A DNA stretch of 64,000 bases from Amycolatopsis marina (GTDB lineage: Bacteria; Actinomycetota; Actinomycetes; Mycobacteriales; Pseudonocardiaceae): contig NZ_FOKG01000028.1 in the NCBI RefSeq assembly GCF_900111885.1, forward strand, positions 1-64,000, given 5' to 3'. The notes under the pieces are model-generated. The model was not told the origin of the DNA. It saw only the letters and a program-made list of their open reading frames with translations, and made no database searches. Numbering within the stretch: the first letter of the stretch is position 1; every line of letters starts with the position of its first letter. Shown here in pieces: positions 45,511 through 51,432 of this stretch. The translations under genes and the position numbers were made by a program.

Positions 45511-46676
45511 ACTCGACGAACTCCACACTCGTCACCGGGATCGCCGAGCTGACCACGAATGATCCGGAACTCGGTGTCCTGCGTGATGCCGCTCTGGTGC
45601 TGGAAGGTGACCGCGTGGCGTGGATCGGGGCCGCTGCCCACGCTCCCGTGGCCGACGATCGGGTGGACGTCGCCGGAAGGGCCGCGCTGCCCGGCTGGGT
45701 CGACAGCCACACCCACCTGGTGTTCGCGGGCGACCGGACCGCCGAGTTCGAGGCACGGATGTCCGGCAAGCCCTACACCGCGGGCGGGATCGCGGTGACC
45801 GTGGCCGCGACCAGGGAGGCGAGCGACGAGGAGTTGCTGGCTAACCTGCGCAGGCACACCGAGGAGGCGCTGCGGCAGGGCACCACGTGCCTCGAGACGA
45901 AGACCGGGTACGGGCTCAGCGTTGCCGACGAGGCGCGCTCGGCCGGAATCGCCGCCCAGCTGGCCGACGAGGTCACTTTCCTTGGCGCGCATCTCGTGCC
46001 CCCGGGAGCCGACGCGGAGTCCTATGTAGACCTGGTCTGTGGCGAGATGCTCGACGCCGTCGCCGGTAGTGTCGGCTGGGCGGACGTGTTCTGCGAGACC
46101 GGCGCGTTCGACGAGGCACAGTCCGCGCGCGTGCTGGAAGCCGCCGCACGGCGGGGGCTCGGCCTGCGGGTGCACGGCAACCAGTTGGGGGAGGGGCCAG
46201 GTGTGCGCCTCGCGGTGGAGCTCGGGGCGGCCAGCGTCGACCACTGCACGTACCTCTCCGAGTCCGATGTGGAGGCGCTGGCCGGTTCCGACACCGTGGC
46301 GACGCTGTTGCCTGCCTGCGATCTCTCCACCCGGCAGCCACTCGCCCCCGCGCGCAGGCTGCTCGACGCGGGGGCGACGGTCGCGCTGGCCAGCAACGCC
46401 AACCCGGGAAGTTCGTACACGACGTCGATGGCGTTCTGTGTCACCACAGCCGTGCTGCAGATGGGGTTGTCCGTCGCGGAGGCGGTGTGGTCGGCGACCG
46501 CGGGCGGAGCCCGCGCGCTGCGCAGGGACAGCGGCGACGGCGCTGTCGGCGTACTGCGCCAGGGTGCACGGGCCGACCTGCAGGTGCTGGACGCTCCCTC
46601 GGTGACCCACCTGGCCTACCGGCCAGGAGTGCCGCTGACCTGGGCGGTCTGGCGCGAGGGCGGCCGCAGGCGCTGA
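45507..46676 (+). CDS. hutI: Imidazolonepropionase
   Basis: This ~389-aa enzyme opens imidazolone propionate to formiminoglutamate. It shows the zinc-site [12 protein letters not shown], the family signatures [13 protein letters not shown] and [17 protein letters not shown], the zinc His in RVHGNQLG, and [11 protein letters not shown] in place of the usual SDxNPGS. GTG 45507 is preferred to GTG 45501 because it keeps the four-base overlap seen at all other operon junctions and the GGGGAG site lies about 8 bases upstream. It is the last gene of the hut operon. Confidence 0.93.
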
Positions 46677-46766
46677 CCGGGTCTCTTACCGTTCGCTTAC
46701 CGGCCGGGCTTCAAGCCTGCGTCGGAGCGGCGCAGACCGCCCGGGCACGGCAGGTCCGGCCGCTGT

Positions 46767-46919
46767 CGTAGCCCGTTGCGCGGACCGTGGCCGACATCGG
46801 GGTCCGGCCTGGTACTGCTGATTGGGCTGCCGTTTGTGACGCTGACCGGCCTGCTGGCTGATATCGCGTACGGTCCGCAGTTGCTGGGGTGCCGACCGGC
46901 CGACAATGGGTCACCGTAA
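46767..46919 (+). pseudogene. Fragment resembling the membrane N-terminus of a molybdopterin-dependent oxidoreductase
   Basis: One plus frame reads RSPLRGPWPTSGSGLVLLIG then LPFVTLTGLLADIAYGPQLL and stops at 46917-46919. From memory this resembles the RSPLRGPW...LPIVILTGLLSYIAYGP start of actinobacterial sulfite-oxidase-type membrane oxidoreductases. Nothing else of the gene remains, and no start codon is present. The rest of the 361-bp gap between hutI and the LysR gene shows nothing. Confidence 0.4.
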
Positions 46920-47037
46920 CGCGCCGAAGGCCGAGTTGCATCGGTAAAGCGTGTGTCGCCACCAGGGGATACACCCGGGACCAACCTTCGTAGGTCGAAA
47001 CTTCTAATCAATATCGAGAATCATTAGCATCGAGCTC

Positions 47038-48024
47038 ATGGAGCTCGAGGTTCGACACCTGAGAGTGATTTGCACGATCGCCGAGGCAGGCAGCCTGACC
47101 AAGGCCGCTGCCCAGCTCGGACTGTCGCAGCCCGCGCTGAGCAACCAACTCCGCCGCATCGAGCAGGTGCTGGGTGGCCCGCTGTTCGTTCGCACTCGTC
47201 AGGGTGCGACAGCCACCAATCTCGGTGAGTTCGTCGTGGCCAGGGCCAGGCCAGCGCTCGGAGTGATCGACCAGCTCCGCGAGGACACGATCGACCACTG
47301 TGGACTCGCCGAGGACCAGAGGCCGTTGCGTTACGTAGCCACGCAGGGGCCACTGATGGTCGGGCTCCTCGGCGACCTGGAACGGTTACGGCCGGGTGGG
47401 GTCACACTGCGTACCGAGGCCGACGTCGTCACCGCGGCCGAGCTGATCGCCGACGGCCAGCGGGACCTCGCCGCCGTGGTCACCTACGTGCAGCCGGGCC
47501 CGGCGGTACCGGGAAAGGTGGAAAATCTAACCATCGCCGAGGAGCCGGCGTTTGCCATCGTCAGCGCCCAGCACCCGGCCGCGAGCAGGGCCGAGGAAGG
47601 CGTTGCGCTGTCGGAGTTGAGCGATTCGTCGTGGGCTTTGCCTCCTCCGCAGGGGAGCGGCTTGATGGCGGCTTTCGCCGAGGCGTGCTCGTTGGCGGGT
47701 TTCACCGCCCGTGTCCGGCACGAGGTCGAGGCTAACGCGGCTCGCGAACTCGTTGCCGCCGGCGAAGCCATCGGTCTCGGACAGGCGACGTTTCGCGCCA
47801 CGGACAACATCATCGCGGTCCCGTTGCGCGACGAACCACTGCGAATCCGACATCTACTGCTGTGGCGCGCAGGAAACACGATCGCTCCTGAGGTGCCCGT
47901 GATCGCCCGCCATGCCCGCGAGGTCTACCGCCGCGCGGTCGATCGCAGCCCGCACTACCTCGCCTGGCTGGCCCGGCGCGGACCCAAAGGTCATCACCAT
48001 GACGTAGAACCCGTTGGAAACTAG
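47038..48024 (+). CDS. LysR-family transcriptional regulator
   Basis: This 328-aa protein has the LysR HTH (EAGSLTKAAAQLGLSQPALS, residues ~17-36, then LRRIEQVLGGPLFVRTRQG) and a periplasmic-binding-protein-like effector domain to the C terminus. The start is ATG 47038. It lies between hutI (same strand, 361 bp away) and the convergent isonitrile genes. It is not divergent from either possible target, so its target is uncertain: an isonitrile operon regulator is possible, and the hut operon already has its own IclR protein. Confidence 0.88.
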   Translation: MELEVRHLRVICTIAEAGSLTKAAAQLGLSQPALSNQLRRIEQVLGGPLFVRTRQGATATNLGEFVVARARPALGVIDQLREDTIDHCGLAEDQRPLRYVATQGPLMVGLLGDLERLRPGGVTLRTEADVVTAAELIADGQRDLAAVVTYVQPGPAVPGKVENLTIAEEPAFAIVSAQHPAASRAEEGVALSELSDSSWALPPPQGSGLMAAFAEACSLAGFTARVRHEVEANAARELVAAGEAIGLGQATFRATDNIIAVPLRDEPLRIRHLLLWRAGNTIAPEVPVIARHAREVYRRAVDRSPHYLAWLARRGPKGHHHDVEPVGN

Positions 48025-48328
48025 TGTGGGGTCTGCTCGTCTTACGTCTGCTGGGGCTCAGGCGGCATCACGCGACACTAGGCGTGCGCTGGAGACAACA
48101 TGAACTATCCGCGAGTACTCGGGCGTGTCCACATCGATCTTCGCATCGCCAAGGACGAGTAGCGTAAATTTCGACAGTCAAGCGGCGAACAGATGGGCGT
48201 GCTTCTGGTGACTTGTCGGCCATCAGGACGCGCAGGTCTAAAGGTCGCCAAGAAAGGCGCACAGCAGACCAACCGGGCCTGCTCCAACGATGTCGGGCAC
48301 AACTGGCACCTTTGACTACGTTCGTGGC
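48025..48328. other. Intergenic region between the LysR gene and the isonitrile operon
   Basis: No gene or clear terminator is seen in the 304 bp between these convergent genes. A 64-codon minus-strand frame at 48068-48262 has no ribosome site and no recognised family; base composition is less GC-rich than in neighbouring genes. Confidence 0.4.
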
Positions 48329-49168
48329 TCAGTCGACCAGTGCGGAATTGTGCAACGGTGGGTCACCGAGCACGTGTACTCGGCGTAGATGCCGCGAGGC
48401 GCGGCTGGTGAATGCTTCGCGCCCATGCAGCAGCGTGTAGTTGTCGGCCACGACAACGTCGCCATCCCGCCAGATATGCCTGTAGAAGTGCTCAGGCGCG
48501 TACAGAGCTTCGCGGATGCTGTCATGGAAACGGCCCAACTCGGCTGGGTCGACACCGGTGAACTCGAGATCGGGATGGTTGATGAAGTTCGGGTCGCCGT
48601 CCGGTACAGGCTCGCCGTAGCGCAGCACTGGAAAGCCGCCAACGGGGTGTGTGGCCACCACTGGCGAGACGGCCGTGCTGTCGTAGTACTCCATCTTGCG
48701 ACGGTAGGTGCCGGTCACCTGTTCCCAGCGGCGCCGCGTTTCCGGGGCTGCCTCGTCAAGTACAGCCGATGTGTTCGAGAAAGTGGTTCGGCCGCCCTGA
48801 CTCTCCCCCGGCGCACTGACACAGTGGAAGACCTGAAACTCGGGTATCTGCTTCCGGTACATGCCGTCCCAGTGCAGTGGGACGTAGCTGTTGTCGAATA
48901 TGTGGTCACTGGGGTCTTCGTGCTCGACCAGTTCGAGCACGGCGCCGAACGGCCACATGCTGATCTCACCCCAGCCACCGCACCATTCCGTGAGGTCCAC
49001 AGGCGAGGTGAACGATGCGAATCCCCGCAACAGCAACAGGTGATGGGTCCTGACCAACTCCCGCAGGCGCTCGACCGGCAACTCGGTCACCGCCTTGGCA
49101 GACTGCGAAGGGCGCACCGCCACTCCGAACGGATGAAGTTTTTCGACGGTAACGTTGGTGACGGTCAT
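48329..49168 (-). CDS. Fe(II)/2-oxoglutarate-dependent oxygenase, TauD/PvcB type
   Basis: This 279-aa protein has the iron facial triad: HWD in VPLHWDGMYR (~116-118) and the distal His in YTLLHGREAF (~250), followed by the 2-oxoglutarate Arg in SRHLRRVHV. It belongs to the TauD/TfdA superfamily. Directly following an isocyanide synthase gene (26 bp, same strand) it is very probably the PvcB/IsnB-type partner that oxidises or decarboxylates the amino-acid isonitrile to a vinyl isonitrile. The start ATG at 49168 (MTVTNV) has AAGGAG upstream; ATG 49171 is an alternative. Confidence 0.85.
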   Translation of the reverse strand: MTVTNVTVEKLHPFGVAVRPSQSAKAVTELPVERLRELVRTHHLLLLRGFASFTSPVDLTEWCGGWGEISMWPFGAVLELVEHEDPSDHIFDNSYVPLHWDGMYRKQIPEFQVFHCVSAPGESQGGRTTFSNTSAVLDEAAPETRRRWEQVTGTYRRKMEYYDSTAVSPVVATHPVGGFPVLRYGEPVPDGDPNFINHPDLEFTGVDPAELGRFHDSIREALYAPEHFYRHIWRDGDVVVADNYTLLHGREAFTSRASRHLRRVHVLGDPPLHNSALVD

Positions 49169-49193
49169 CATTCTCCTTATCCGACAACATGTT

Positions 49194-50153
49194 CTACGCG
49201 ATTTGCGAGCGTGACTGCCGCATGGTGAAGTGGCTTGGCCGCTCACCCAGACTGACCAACTCGGCACCGGCGGCTTCGGCTTCGGCACGTTTCATCAGTA
49301 CGAACCGGTCACCGAGGTCGACCGCGACGCTGTGCCACGGAGTGAGCCAGTTGTCCCTGGTCTCGGTGAGATGAATGCCCAGTTTCGGCGCGCCGCAGGG
49401 CTGCGGGTGGATGGACAGACGCACGGCCCCGGGATAACGCTCCACCAGGAGATCGCCCCAGGCCTTGCTGCGCTGCAGCATCTGGTAGGCCCGTGCCCGC
49501 GCCGTCCGCTGGAGGGCGGAGCGGCTGCCTTGATAGGTCGCTGTGTTTCTGTCCTCGAACAGGAATCGGGTGATCGCGCGGTACAGCGCGACATCGATGC
49601 CCGCCCGGACCCGCTCTCGGAGTGTGTCGAGGTCTTCGGCATAGGCTTCGGCCAGCCGTGCTCTTGCCTGATCATGGCTACGTCGGGCGAATCCAGGGAA
49701 ATCGTCGAGGGCGATCAGCCGGATCCGCCTTTGCGGCAGGCTGTCGATCATCACCTGCAGTTCCCGCCGGTAGATGGTGATGTCCTCGTCCGGAATGCCC
49801 AGAATATCGCCGAAGACCCGGCCATCGGAGGCGATCACGAGCTCCGCTCCTGGCGGGTGGACCGCGCCGATCTGGCCGATCAAGGTGTCAAGCGACTCAA
49901 GCGCGAGCTGTTCGGCCAGATCCGGCACGTTGCCGAGTACCTTGGCCTCGTTGGGCGACTTGCAGGGAAACGCGGGCAGCACGAACAACACCGGCCTGCC
50001 CGCTTCGACACTGCGTTTCACCTGGTCGAGATGAGCGGACAAACATCGGTCGCAGCGCGGCTCGCGGCACTTTTCCGGCCCGGGCAGCTTCCGCTGGCGA
50101 GCGAGTACCAGCTTCATCACTAGCCCCGCGACCCGCCGTGCTTTCTCGGACAT
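49194..50153 (-). CDS. Isonitrile (isocyanide) synthase, PvcA/IsnA family
   Basis: This 319-aa protein belongs to the PvcA/DIT1 family: LPAFPCKSPNEAKVLG near residue 60 is the family signature, followed by ASDGRVFGDILGIPD and YRRELQVM, and near the C terminus RLSIHPQ and TPWHSVAVDL. These enzymes make an isonitrile from the amino group of Tyr or Trp using ribulose 5-phosphate as the carbon source. An N-terminal Cys cluster (CREPRCDRC) is visible. No NRPS or further tailoring gene is adjacent. Its promoter is well defined at 50207-50240. Confidence 0.9.
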   Translation of the reverse strand: MSEKARRVAGLVMKLVLARQRKLPGPEKCREPRCDRCLSAHLDQVKRSVEAGRPVLFVLPAFPCKSPNEAKVLGNVPDLAEQLALESLDTLIGQIGAVHPPGAELVIASDGRVFGDILGIPDEDITIYRRELQVMIDSLPQRRIRLIALDDFPGFARRSHDQARARLAEAYAEDLDTLRERVRAGIDVALYRAITRFLFEDRNTATYQGSRSALQRTARARAYQMLQRSKAWGDLLVERYPGAVRLSIHPQPCGAPKLGIHLTETRDNWLTPWHSVAVDLGDRFVLMKRAEAEAAGAELVSLGERPSHFTMRQSRSQIA

Positions 50154-50206
50154 TCTCGGCCTTTCTCGATCTACGCAAACCTCAGCGTGACCAGATCGGA
50201 AGGGCG

Positions 50207-50240
50207 TTCATACTGGCATTTAGGTATAACACCAAGTTAT
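50207..50240 (-). promoter_or_regulatory. Promoter and palindrome of the isonitrile operon
   Basis: On the minus strand, TTGGTG (plus 50230-50235) and TATGAA (plus 50207-50212) are 17 bp apart, a good sigma-70-type promoter ~50 bp before the synthase ATG. ATAAC (50226-50230) and GTTAT (50236-50240) form an inverted repeat around the -35, a likely regulator site. The DNA here is markedly AT-richer than the surroundings. Confidence 0.65.
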
Positions 50241-50298
50241 GTGACTGATCAGCCTTCTGGCTGCCTGTAGATCGGGTTGACTACCTGGCCGTTTCGCA

Positions 50299-50523
50299 AT
50301 GGCGAGGTTGCCCGGTGCGGTGATTGTGCACGTCTTGGTGCTGTTCCCGTTGTGCGCGACTGTCGAAAGGGGACTGCTGCTGTCCTCGCCCCGGTTGGCT
50401 GTGACCGTGCTGAATCACCTGCGTGTACCGGCACTGGCGAGCGGGCTGCTGTTCGTGCTCTTCTTCCCCGAAATCATCGAGCACGGTTCGCGGACCTATC
50501 AGGCCGCGACCGGGCAGAAGTAG
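50299..50523 (+). CDS. Possible small membrane protein, perhaps a fragment
   Basis: This 74-aa frame has two hydrophobic stretches (AVIVHVLVLFPLCATV and ASGLLFVLFFPEI) and ends SRTYQAATGQ. After the stop, another frame continues with the hydrophobic DADFFAVSLLAYASGCSAG, suggesting a longer membrane protein broken by frameshift. No family is recognised. It could be a decayed gene between the isonitrile operon and the gene pair that follows. Confidence 0.3.
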   Translation: MARLPGAVIVHVLVLFPLCATVERGLLLSSPRLAVTVLNHLRVPALASGLLFVLFFPEIIEHGSRTYQAATGQK

Positions 50524-50622
50524 GAGCCGTTCCTGGTCAGTGACTGCTGCTGGATGCGGACTTCTTCGCGGTCAGCCTGCTCGCCTACGCTTCGGGGTGC
50601 TCCGCGGGTACAGCTGACCGCC

Positions 50623-51432
50623 TCAGGCCAGGGCCGTGCGGACCGGCCCCGCCTCGTCCAGCAGACCCAGTGCGGCGGCCTGTTTCCTGGCGTCCGCGCG
50701 CACGCCGGACTCGAGGCCGGCCACGGCGCTGATCAGCCGTTCCTGGTTCGCCGGGCGCAGGTGTGTCAGCAGGTCGAAAGCCAGCGGCCACAGGTCGTGC
50801 TCCGCGGCCGCCGCGGCGAGACCTGGAAAGCGCGTGCTCGGCAGCAGGTCGACGACGTGGTCGATCCGCTCCTTCTCGTCGAGCACGAACGCGACCCGCA
50901 GCAGGGCCTCGTCGTGCACGGCGTCGAGGGTGGCCGAGACCGTCCGGTCGGGCAGGTGGCCGACGAACCGGCCGATGGTGATCCAGTCCTGCCTGCCGAC
51001 GAGTTCGTGCGCCACCTCGCGCACGGTGTCCGCCGGGATTCCGGCGATGATCCGCCTGGCCCTGCGGGGATCGAGTTCGGCGGCGACGTCGGAGAGGAAG
51101 GCGGGGGAGAGGCGCCGGGCGACGTCCACACCCCTGGAGACGTCGATGAGTCCGGCGAGCCGGGCGCACAGCAGTGGCCCGAAGACCTTCTCCGCGATCC
51201 GGCCCAGCACGGAGACCGGCAGCAGCTTGCTTGCCGCCGCCATGCGTTGCAGCACGCCGAGGTTGGCGTCGAACAGCACGTCCGTGGCCTGTTCCCGCAG
51301 GCGGCGGATGTCCACCGCGTCGACCTGCTCCAGGAAGTCGAGCCGTTCGGCGGGGGTCTTCAACAGCCTGGCGAGTTTGAGCACCTCGGCGCGGGACTCC
51401 AGTTCGGCCAGTGTCGCCGTCTGCGCGCTCAC
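50623..51432 (-). CDS. Hypothetical helical-repeat protein
   Basis: This 269-aa soluble protein is not recognised. It is rich in short amphipathic helices with a repeated rhythm (AELDPRRARRIIAGIPADTV, ELVGRQDWITIGRFVGHLP, LDAVHDEALLRVAFVLD), reminiscent of MgtE-N or HEAT-like superhelices, suggesting a protein-protein interaction role. Its GTG start overlaps the stop of the 71-aa gene upstream (GTGA), so the two are translationally coupled. No catalytic motif is visible. Confidence 0.6.
   Translation of the reverse strand: MSAQTATLAELESRAEVLKLARLLKTPAERLDFLEQVDAVDIRRLREQATDVLFDANLGVLQRMAAASKLLPVSVLGRIAEKVFGPLLCARLAGLIDVSRGVDVARRLSPAFLSDVAAELDPRRARRIIAGIPADTVREVAHELVGRQDWITIGRFVGHLPDRTVSATLDAVHDEALLRVAFVLDEKERIDHVVDLLPSTRFPGLAAAAAEHDLWPLAFDLLTHLRPANQERLISAVAGLESGVRADARKQAAALGLLDEAGPVRTALA

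Follow-up and report, generated by a model that had tools for sequence, protein, structure and literature searches.

We analysed a window of 64,000 nucleotides from Amycolatopsis marina (the whole stretch of DNA considered here), which carries two adjacent genes of isonitrile biosynthesis on its reverse strand. The first, pvcA (49194–50153), encodes an intact isonitrile (isocyanide) synthase of the PvcA/IsnA type, 319 amino acids long and containing the signature LPAFPCKSPNEAKVLG. It matches PF05141 over profile positions 1–272 of 273 (E = 1.5e-73; 248 bits against a curated cut-off of 26.4) and is the sole match to that family in the source genome (7.02 Mb). Its nearest solved structure is PvcA (3e59, E = 7.3e-84). 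With NF045653, the equivalog model for the tyrosine isonitrile synthase PvcA, the score of 276.2 bits falls below the cut-off of 600; this is a strict model, and its cut-off does not bear on the wider PF05141 family.

The second gene, pvcB (48329–49171, same strand), encodes an intact Fe(II)/2-oxoglutarate oxygenase of the PvcB/IsnB type, with 280 amino acids counted from the ATG at 49171 and a PF02668 match at E = 7.3e-47. The nearest structures are PvcB (3eat, E = 1.2e-91) and then 7tcl (E = 3.2e-85). We identify the latter as the PIsnB structure described in PMC9467999 because the ligand and the K107 numbering agree; the identification is ours and not taken from a database entry. The iron ligands H100, D102 and H249 align with H101, D103 and H250 of PIsnB, and the carboxylate residues R264, W73 and G103 with R265, W74 and G104. 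Wherever all other rows agree on a residue, the window protein has it too, both in the synthase (49-row alignment, forty-eight other rows) and in the oxygenase (36-row alignment).

An earlier note on this DNA had described an isocyanide synthase followed by an Fe/2OG oxygenase with the HWD and distal histidine ligands, assigned the pair to the PvcA/PvcB (IsnA/IsnB) kind and proposed a check of conserved residues. The profile matches and alignments bear out each of these points, and no NRPS, P450, or prenyltransferase was recognised beside the pair, as the note had also said. The intergenic gap was given as 26 bp; it is 22 bp if the ATG at 49171 is the start and 25 bp if the following ATG is. 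The note had made no mention of a LysR gene (47038–48024), of a decayed third gene at about 48291–48097 or of an operator-like dyad (50225–50241), all three of which are described below.

A probable insertion and its flanks

Both genes lie within 3969 bp (46669–50637) that are absent from the genome G441 (blastn against L088). Among sixty genomes of the genus, and setting the window itself aside, G441 matches both of the tested flanking genes best. There the flanks are 15 bp apart, with DNA identity of 89 per cent on the left and 84 per cent on the right (blastn), and no synthase match was found in that genome. Across the genus, eight of eighty genomes have a synthase match, the source genome included. 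At 63.9 per cent, the stretch has a lower GC content than any of 1042 same-size stretches elsewhere in the window (64.8–72.3 per cent). Because the stretch is missing from G441 and has the lowest GC in the window, the pvcAB cassette was probably acquired by transfer, a suggestion that the earlier note had based on the promoter and that now has this wider backing. No repeats pairing the two ends of the stretch were present among twenty direct families and 25 of the 32 inverted pairs listed. A search for related plasmid DNA returned nineteen records, all 60–80 per cent identical, of which the best covers 31 per cent of the query.

The edges of the stretch hold scraps of other genes. At the left edge (46662–46910, forward strand) is the N-terminal part of a molybdopterin-oxidoreductase gene, interrupted by a stop and found by tblastn with a protein from G439 (locus L101; 47 per cent identity over 83 aa, E = 1.6e-15). 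That protein, in its intact form, matches PF00174. The right edge (50314–50651, forward strand) holds a scrap, also with a stop, of the gene beside that oxidoreductase (59 per cent over 81 aa, E = 2.1e-21, with a weaker piece at 50544–50651, E = 0.001). The intact L101 neighbor protein used in this second tblastn search has no Pfam match. In G439 the two genes are intact and adjoin each other. Given these scraps of two neighboring genes, the cassette seems to be nested in the wreck of a molybdopterin operon. Although a small ORF at 50299–50523 resembles a gene, Pfam gives no match for it, and we set it aside as a fragment of some longer protein.

Besides the window, the molybdopterin operon has seven same-genus matches. 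Positions of a hutI-like gene were available for five of these seven genomes (G458 and G459 fall outside that set). The hutI-like gene is on a different contig from the molybdopterin match in G439, G443, and G425; in G435 and G027 the two share a contig but are separated by 2.7 Mb or more. In the window, the left flank consists of an amidohydrolase gene (PF01979), which we take to be hutI, and a urocanase gene; the right flank has a histidine kinase and a protein whose match to MgtE_N is weak and falls short of the cut-off.

The pvcB–lysR spacer and related operons

Downstream of pvcB, a 304-bp spacer separates it from a regulatory gene, lysR. This spacer contains the remnant of a PvcD-type FAD_binding_3 monooxygenase gene (48097–48291, reverse strand), made up of an N-terminal piece in two frames (48291–48206) and a weaker C-terminal piece (48168–48097). 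An intact FAD_binding_3 monooxygenase gene stands directly after pvcB in the same-genus genome G458 (locus L096) and in Burkholderia stagnalis (L107). The two proteins are 68 per cent identical to each other and both score above the NF005531 cut-off. With strand and order preserved, the spacer scraps correspond to residues 13–29 and 31–41 of the L096 protein, which fall in different frames, and to about twenty-four residues close to the C-terminal end of the L107 protein. With either protein as tblastn query, the N-terminal piece reaches 35.0 bits; for the C-terminal piece the score is 29.3 bits with L107 and 21.9 with L096, and for the 31–41 piece it is 20.8 bits. Among 500 shuffled spacers the highest score was 26.6 bits; taken singly, the first piece and the C-terminal match to L107 are the only ones above it. 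At the DNA level the remnant is 78 per cent identical to L096 over 83 bp (E = 1e-14), and some 370 residues between the two pieces are missing. The label PvcD-type reflects where the remnant lies and which family it belongs to.

With a remnant in the spacer and an intact D gene after pvcB elsewhere, the pvcAB pair looks like a reduced A-B-D operon in which a third enzyme gene was once present and then decayed. Calling it a minimal two-gene operon, as the earlier note had done, is thus misleading, both for this reason and because lysR is part of the unit (see below). The same pair was found in related genomes, as that note had proposed to check, and its lysR, C, or D neighbors vary. Of thirteen related loci, five have an HpaB-type C gene (L002, L003, L010, L095, L117), two have D (L096, L107), and five have neither (L004, its counterpart L116, L006, L007, L060); L005 ends before pvcB. 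No C gene is present in the 3969-bp island. We consider it well supported that the window operon belongs to the known PvcA/PvcB kind and has a history of reduction. The locus catches a natural-product operon in the course of reduction, since related loci with the gene intact, its remains here and an unoccupied site in a close relative can all be compared.

The loss of D could also be the first step in the decay of the whole operon, with A and B still open yet no longer under selection and nothing being made. We regard this as improbable. It would fit the broken D, the gene scraps at the edges and the end branch of the window synthase, which is 0.61 against 0.17 for the window oxygenase. However, pvcA and pvcB are free of stops and frameshifts and retain every invariant residue, whereas D and both edge genes are broken. 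In addition, the Streptomyces locus L004 consists of LysR-A-B with no C or D within 16.9 kb, so the A-B state persists elsewhere. Estimates of dN/dS, which also span the time before the third gene was lost, are below 1 in all thirteen pairs: 0.21–0.33 for B (five pairs), 0.28–0.42 for A (five pairs) and 0.38–0.56 for LysR (three pairs).

Five Streptomyces loci (L002–L006, from S. coacervatus, S. cinnamoneus, S. abikoensis, and others) resemble the reduced operon in the window closely, with identities of 55–58 per cent for LysR, 61–64 per cent for A and 61–68 per cent for B, where L005 ends before B and the L006 B is in two frames. They differ in that lysR is divergent from pvcA, whereas in the window it is convergent with pvcB, and L002 and L003 keep the HpaB-type C. 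In G458, B is 74.5 per cent identical to that of the window and an intact D occupies the position of the remnant, but the gene order is B-D-lysR-A and A is only 51 per cent identical.

Two of the related loci have features of their own. In Streptomyces lilacinus (L006, 9043–10114), the two pieces of pvcB in different frames reflect either a broken gene or a sequencing error. In G462 (L095, 9484–11053), two tandem oxygenase copies follow the synthase. The first is shortened and 43 per cent identical, with no residue aligned at the carboxylate tryptophan; the second is full and is followed by an HpaB-type C, with a flavin reductase and a LigB dioxygenase nearby.

The regulator and an operator-like box

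The lysR gene (47038–48024, forward strand; PF00126/PF03466) encodes a LysR-family regulator. Because relatives at 55–58 per cent identity adjoin pvcA divergently in the five Streptomyces loci, and one at 42 per cent adjoins pvcA in G458 (L096), we take lysR to belong to the pvcAB unit. At E = 1e-10, no relative of lysR was found in the stretches of L007, L010, L060, L095, L107, and L117, the first and last of these being short. G141, to which L060 belongs, lacks a LysR of this kind in the 19 kb surrounding pvcA, and a LysR of 50 per cent identity lies about 715 kb away.

Between pvcA and the right edge is an operator-like dyad of the T-N11-A form, CATAAC-N5-GTTATA (50225–50241, reverse strand), which ends 71 bp upstream of the pvcA ATG. 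Its core, ATAAC-N5-GTTAT, occurs once in the 64-kb window and in none of 100 shuffles. A relaxed box, CATA[AG]C-N4-6-[GC][CT]TAT[AGC], was drawn from inspected promoters (window, L002–L006, L095, L096, L107) and used to scan ninety-six sequences totaling 1.04 Mb, from which twenty-five copies or short duplicates were excluded by hand. The scan gave twelve rows, which reduce to nine sites when palindromes are counted once and L115, a copy of the window, is excluded. These are in the window, L096 (before pvcB, a perfect ATAAC-N5-GTTAT), L002, L004, L005, and L006 (at the lysR start), L116, L060 (before pvcA), and L063, where the box is about 8 kb from the synthase gene. Four of the five Streptomyces loci thus have a related box between lysR and pvcA. 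Only L060, L116, and L063 are outside the promoters used to build the pattern, and the L116 box is not independent, its identities being the same as those of L004. The relaxed box is missing from L003, which is LysR-linked, and from the relatives L007, L010, L095, L107, and L117. In favor of the link between LysR and the box, G141 has the box at its pvcA and carries the more distant LysR noted above. Across the source genome the relaxed box is not enriched, with three distinct sites against 5 + 5 for the reversed pattern.

The link between LysR and the box is suggestive, not proven. A scan for promoter and terminator consensus sequences found one of each, against shuffle means of 0.4 and 2.0. 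No description of an actinomycete LysR-pvcAB operon or of its operator was found in the literature searched, which consisted mostly of papers available without subscription. The box is nevertheless a candidate operator for LysR regulators of actinomycete isonitrile operons, and expression of the regulator could perhaps switch the genes on.

Elsewhere in the source genome (C18, 230663–230680), a relaxed box lies across the start of a gene for a LysR paralogue of 39 per cent identity; from this, such boxes may be a general feature of the LysR subfamily concerned.

Phylogeny, selectivity residues, and the proposed product

In the synthase tree (forty-eight rows, excluding L061, a duplicate of L017), the window sequence groups with the five Streptomyces sequences (support 100/99). 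In the oxygenase tree (thirty-four rows, excluding L061 and the broken L006 match), it pairs with G458 (99/96), inside a nine-row group that includes the acrylate-forming PvcB of P. aeruginosa and the Paraburkholderia B (95/94); PIsnB falls outside. The placement of G458 differs between the two trees, which suggests that A or B was replaced in one lineage.

Two positions of the oxygenase bear on what it makes: R106, at PIsnB K107, and G186, at PIsnB N188. According to section 12 of PMC9467999, vinyl-forming enzymes have Lys/Arg and Asn/His at these positions and acrylate-forming enzymes Leu and Cys. The same source describes single changes at the selectivity positions of PIsnB-Ah that left the product unswitched. 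In the window oxygenase, R106 fits the Lys/Arg of the vinyl type, whereas G186 is neither Asn nor His, and the Leu and Cys of the acrylate type are both absent. Among the thirty-six oxygenase rows, only that of G458 shares G186, and the R/G pair is common to both. The pair is R/N in L002, L003, L004, and L107, K/N in L060 and L016, and L/C only in PvcB and L010. The R/G oxygenases are a test of the published rule separating vinyl isonitriles from isocyanoacrylates, which is incomplete by its authors' own data.

The earlier note had left the substrate as tyrosine or tryptophan. Tyrosine is favored, and tryptophan seems less likely because the oxygenase has the Met-Tyr pocket residues of PvcB and PIsnB, in a comparison that included no tryptophan-type enzyme. 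With moderate confidence, we propose that the product is 4-(2-isocyanovinyl)phenol, a tyrosine-derived vinyl isonitrile, because R106 matches the Lys/Arg of vinyl-forming enzymes. Against this, G186 belongs to neither published class, B groups with the acrylate-forming PvcB, and the NF045653 score is below the cut-off.

It is conceivable, though we doubt it, that B instead makes an isocyanoacrylate without loss of CO2. The product would then be 4-hydroxyphenyl isocyanoacrylate and the lost D a coumarin-type tailoring enzyme. The grouping of B with PvcB and the Paraburkholderia enzyme points in this direction, as do the lack of Asn/His at G186 and the nature of the decayed gene, since PvcD of the paerucumarin operon is also an FAD monooxygenase. 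R106 is not Leu and G186 is not Cys, however, and that combination is confined to PvcB and L010. In pvcABCD-ptxR of P. aeruginosa (paerucumarin), as in the window, a synthase precedes an Fe/2OG oxygenase in one operon with a LysR gene beside it, but the window has no C, only a remnant of D, and R106/G186 in place of Leu/Cys. The LysR activator gene ptxR adjoins pvcABCD, next to pvcD by the plasmid description in PMC3639982. The likeness to ptxR is one of family and position. The isnA-isnB genes of Xenorhabdus and Photorhabdus, for the rhabduscin aglycone, share the two-enzyme logic and the fit of R106 to Lys/Arg; the window differs in having a lysR and no recognised adjacent glycosyltransferase, and PIsnB is apart in the B tree.

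Taking these lines together, we think it fairly probable, if well short of certain, that the locus is a LysR-controlled, probably transferred pvcAB operon derived from a larger A-B-D operon and making a tyrosine-derived vinyl isonitrile. The LysR protein would bind the dyad at 50225–50241 and activate leftward transcription through pvcA and pvcB. From L-tyrosine and ribulose-5-phosphate, PvcA would form tyrosine isonitrile by condensing the tyrosine amino group with a carbon of the sugar phosphate. From this isonitrile the Fe(IV)-oxo of PvcB would take the benzylic hydrogen, with loss of CO2, to give 4-(2-isocyanovinyl)phenol. With the FAD monooxygenase decayed, the product would be without its addition unless another enzyme supplies it. 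In Xenorhabdus nematophila, inhibition of phenoloxidase requires isnAB, and partial inhibition is seen with a mutant in which the aglycone builds up, as described in PMC6386379. By analogy, a copper-enzyme (tyrosinase-type) inhibitor would be a reasonable role, and the product is probably a small inhibitor of this kind or a metal ligand.

Enzymes encoded elsewhere in the genome might finish the isonitrile, by glycosyl transfer or ring hydroxylation in trans, but we consider this rather unlikely. There is precedent in Photorhabdus luminescens, whose rhabduscin glycosyltransferase is encoded elsewhere in the genome (PMC6386379), and the A. marina genome has one HpaB-family protein. That protein, however, is 34 per cent identical to the pvc-linked C and sits among genes for ring-cleaving and ring-hydroxylating dioxygenases. 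Of the D-like proteins encoded in the genome, the one with the highest score is 29 per cent identical, and a weaker one is 41 per cent identical over 111 residues. On present evidence we set these HpaB and D-like proteins aside as pvc tailoring partners, given the low identities and the HpaB context.

A broader and more speculative extension of the vinyl isonitrile proposal, to which we would give only limited credence, is that an actinomycete pvcAB regulon controlled by LysR and its operator repeatedly sheds C or D while retaining A and B, that the unhydroxylated vinyl isonitrile is the selected end product, and that the R/G oxygenases of this genus form a third selectivity class next to the PIsnB and PvcB types.

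Three synthase loci have other neighbors. On a plasmid of Streptomyces sp. NBC_00648 (L108, NZ_CP109039.1), no pvcB-like match was found, and the annotation places the synthase next to genes for a P450 and for an asparagine synthase; upstream are an MFS transporter and an ABC transporter for iron. This is a different tailoring logic. In Paraburkholderia (L010, 11499–13364), an asparagine-synthase gene follows A-B-C. Finally, G458 has a second synthase gene (L097, 8728–9666), which follows a 2912-aa open frame, has a P450 gene (PF00067) downstream and groups with G004 in the tree.
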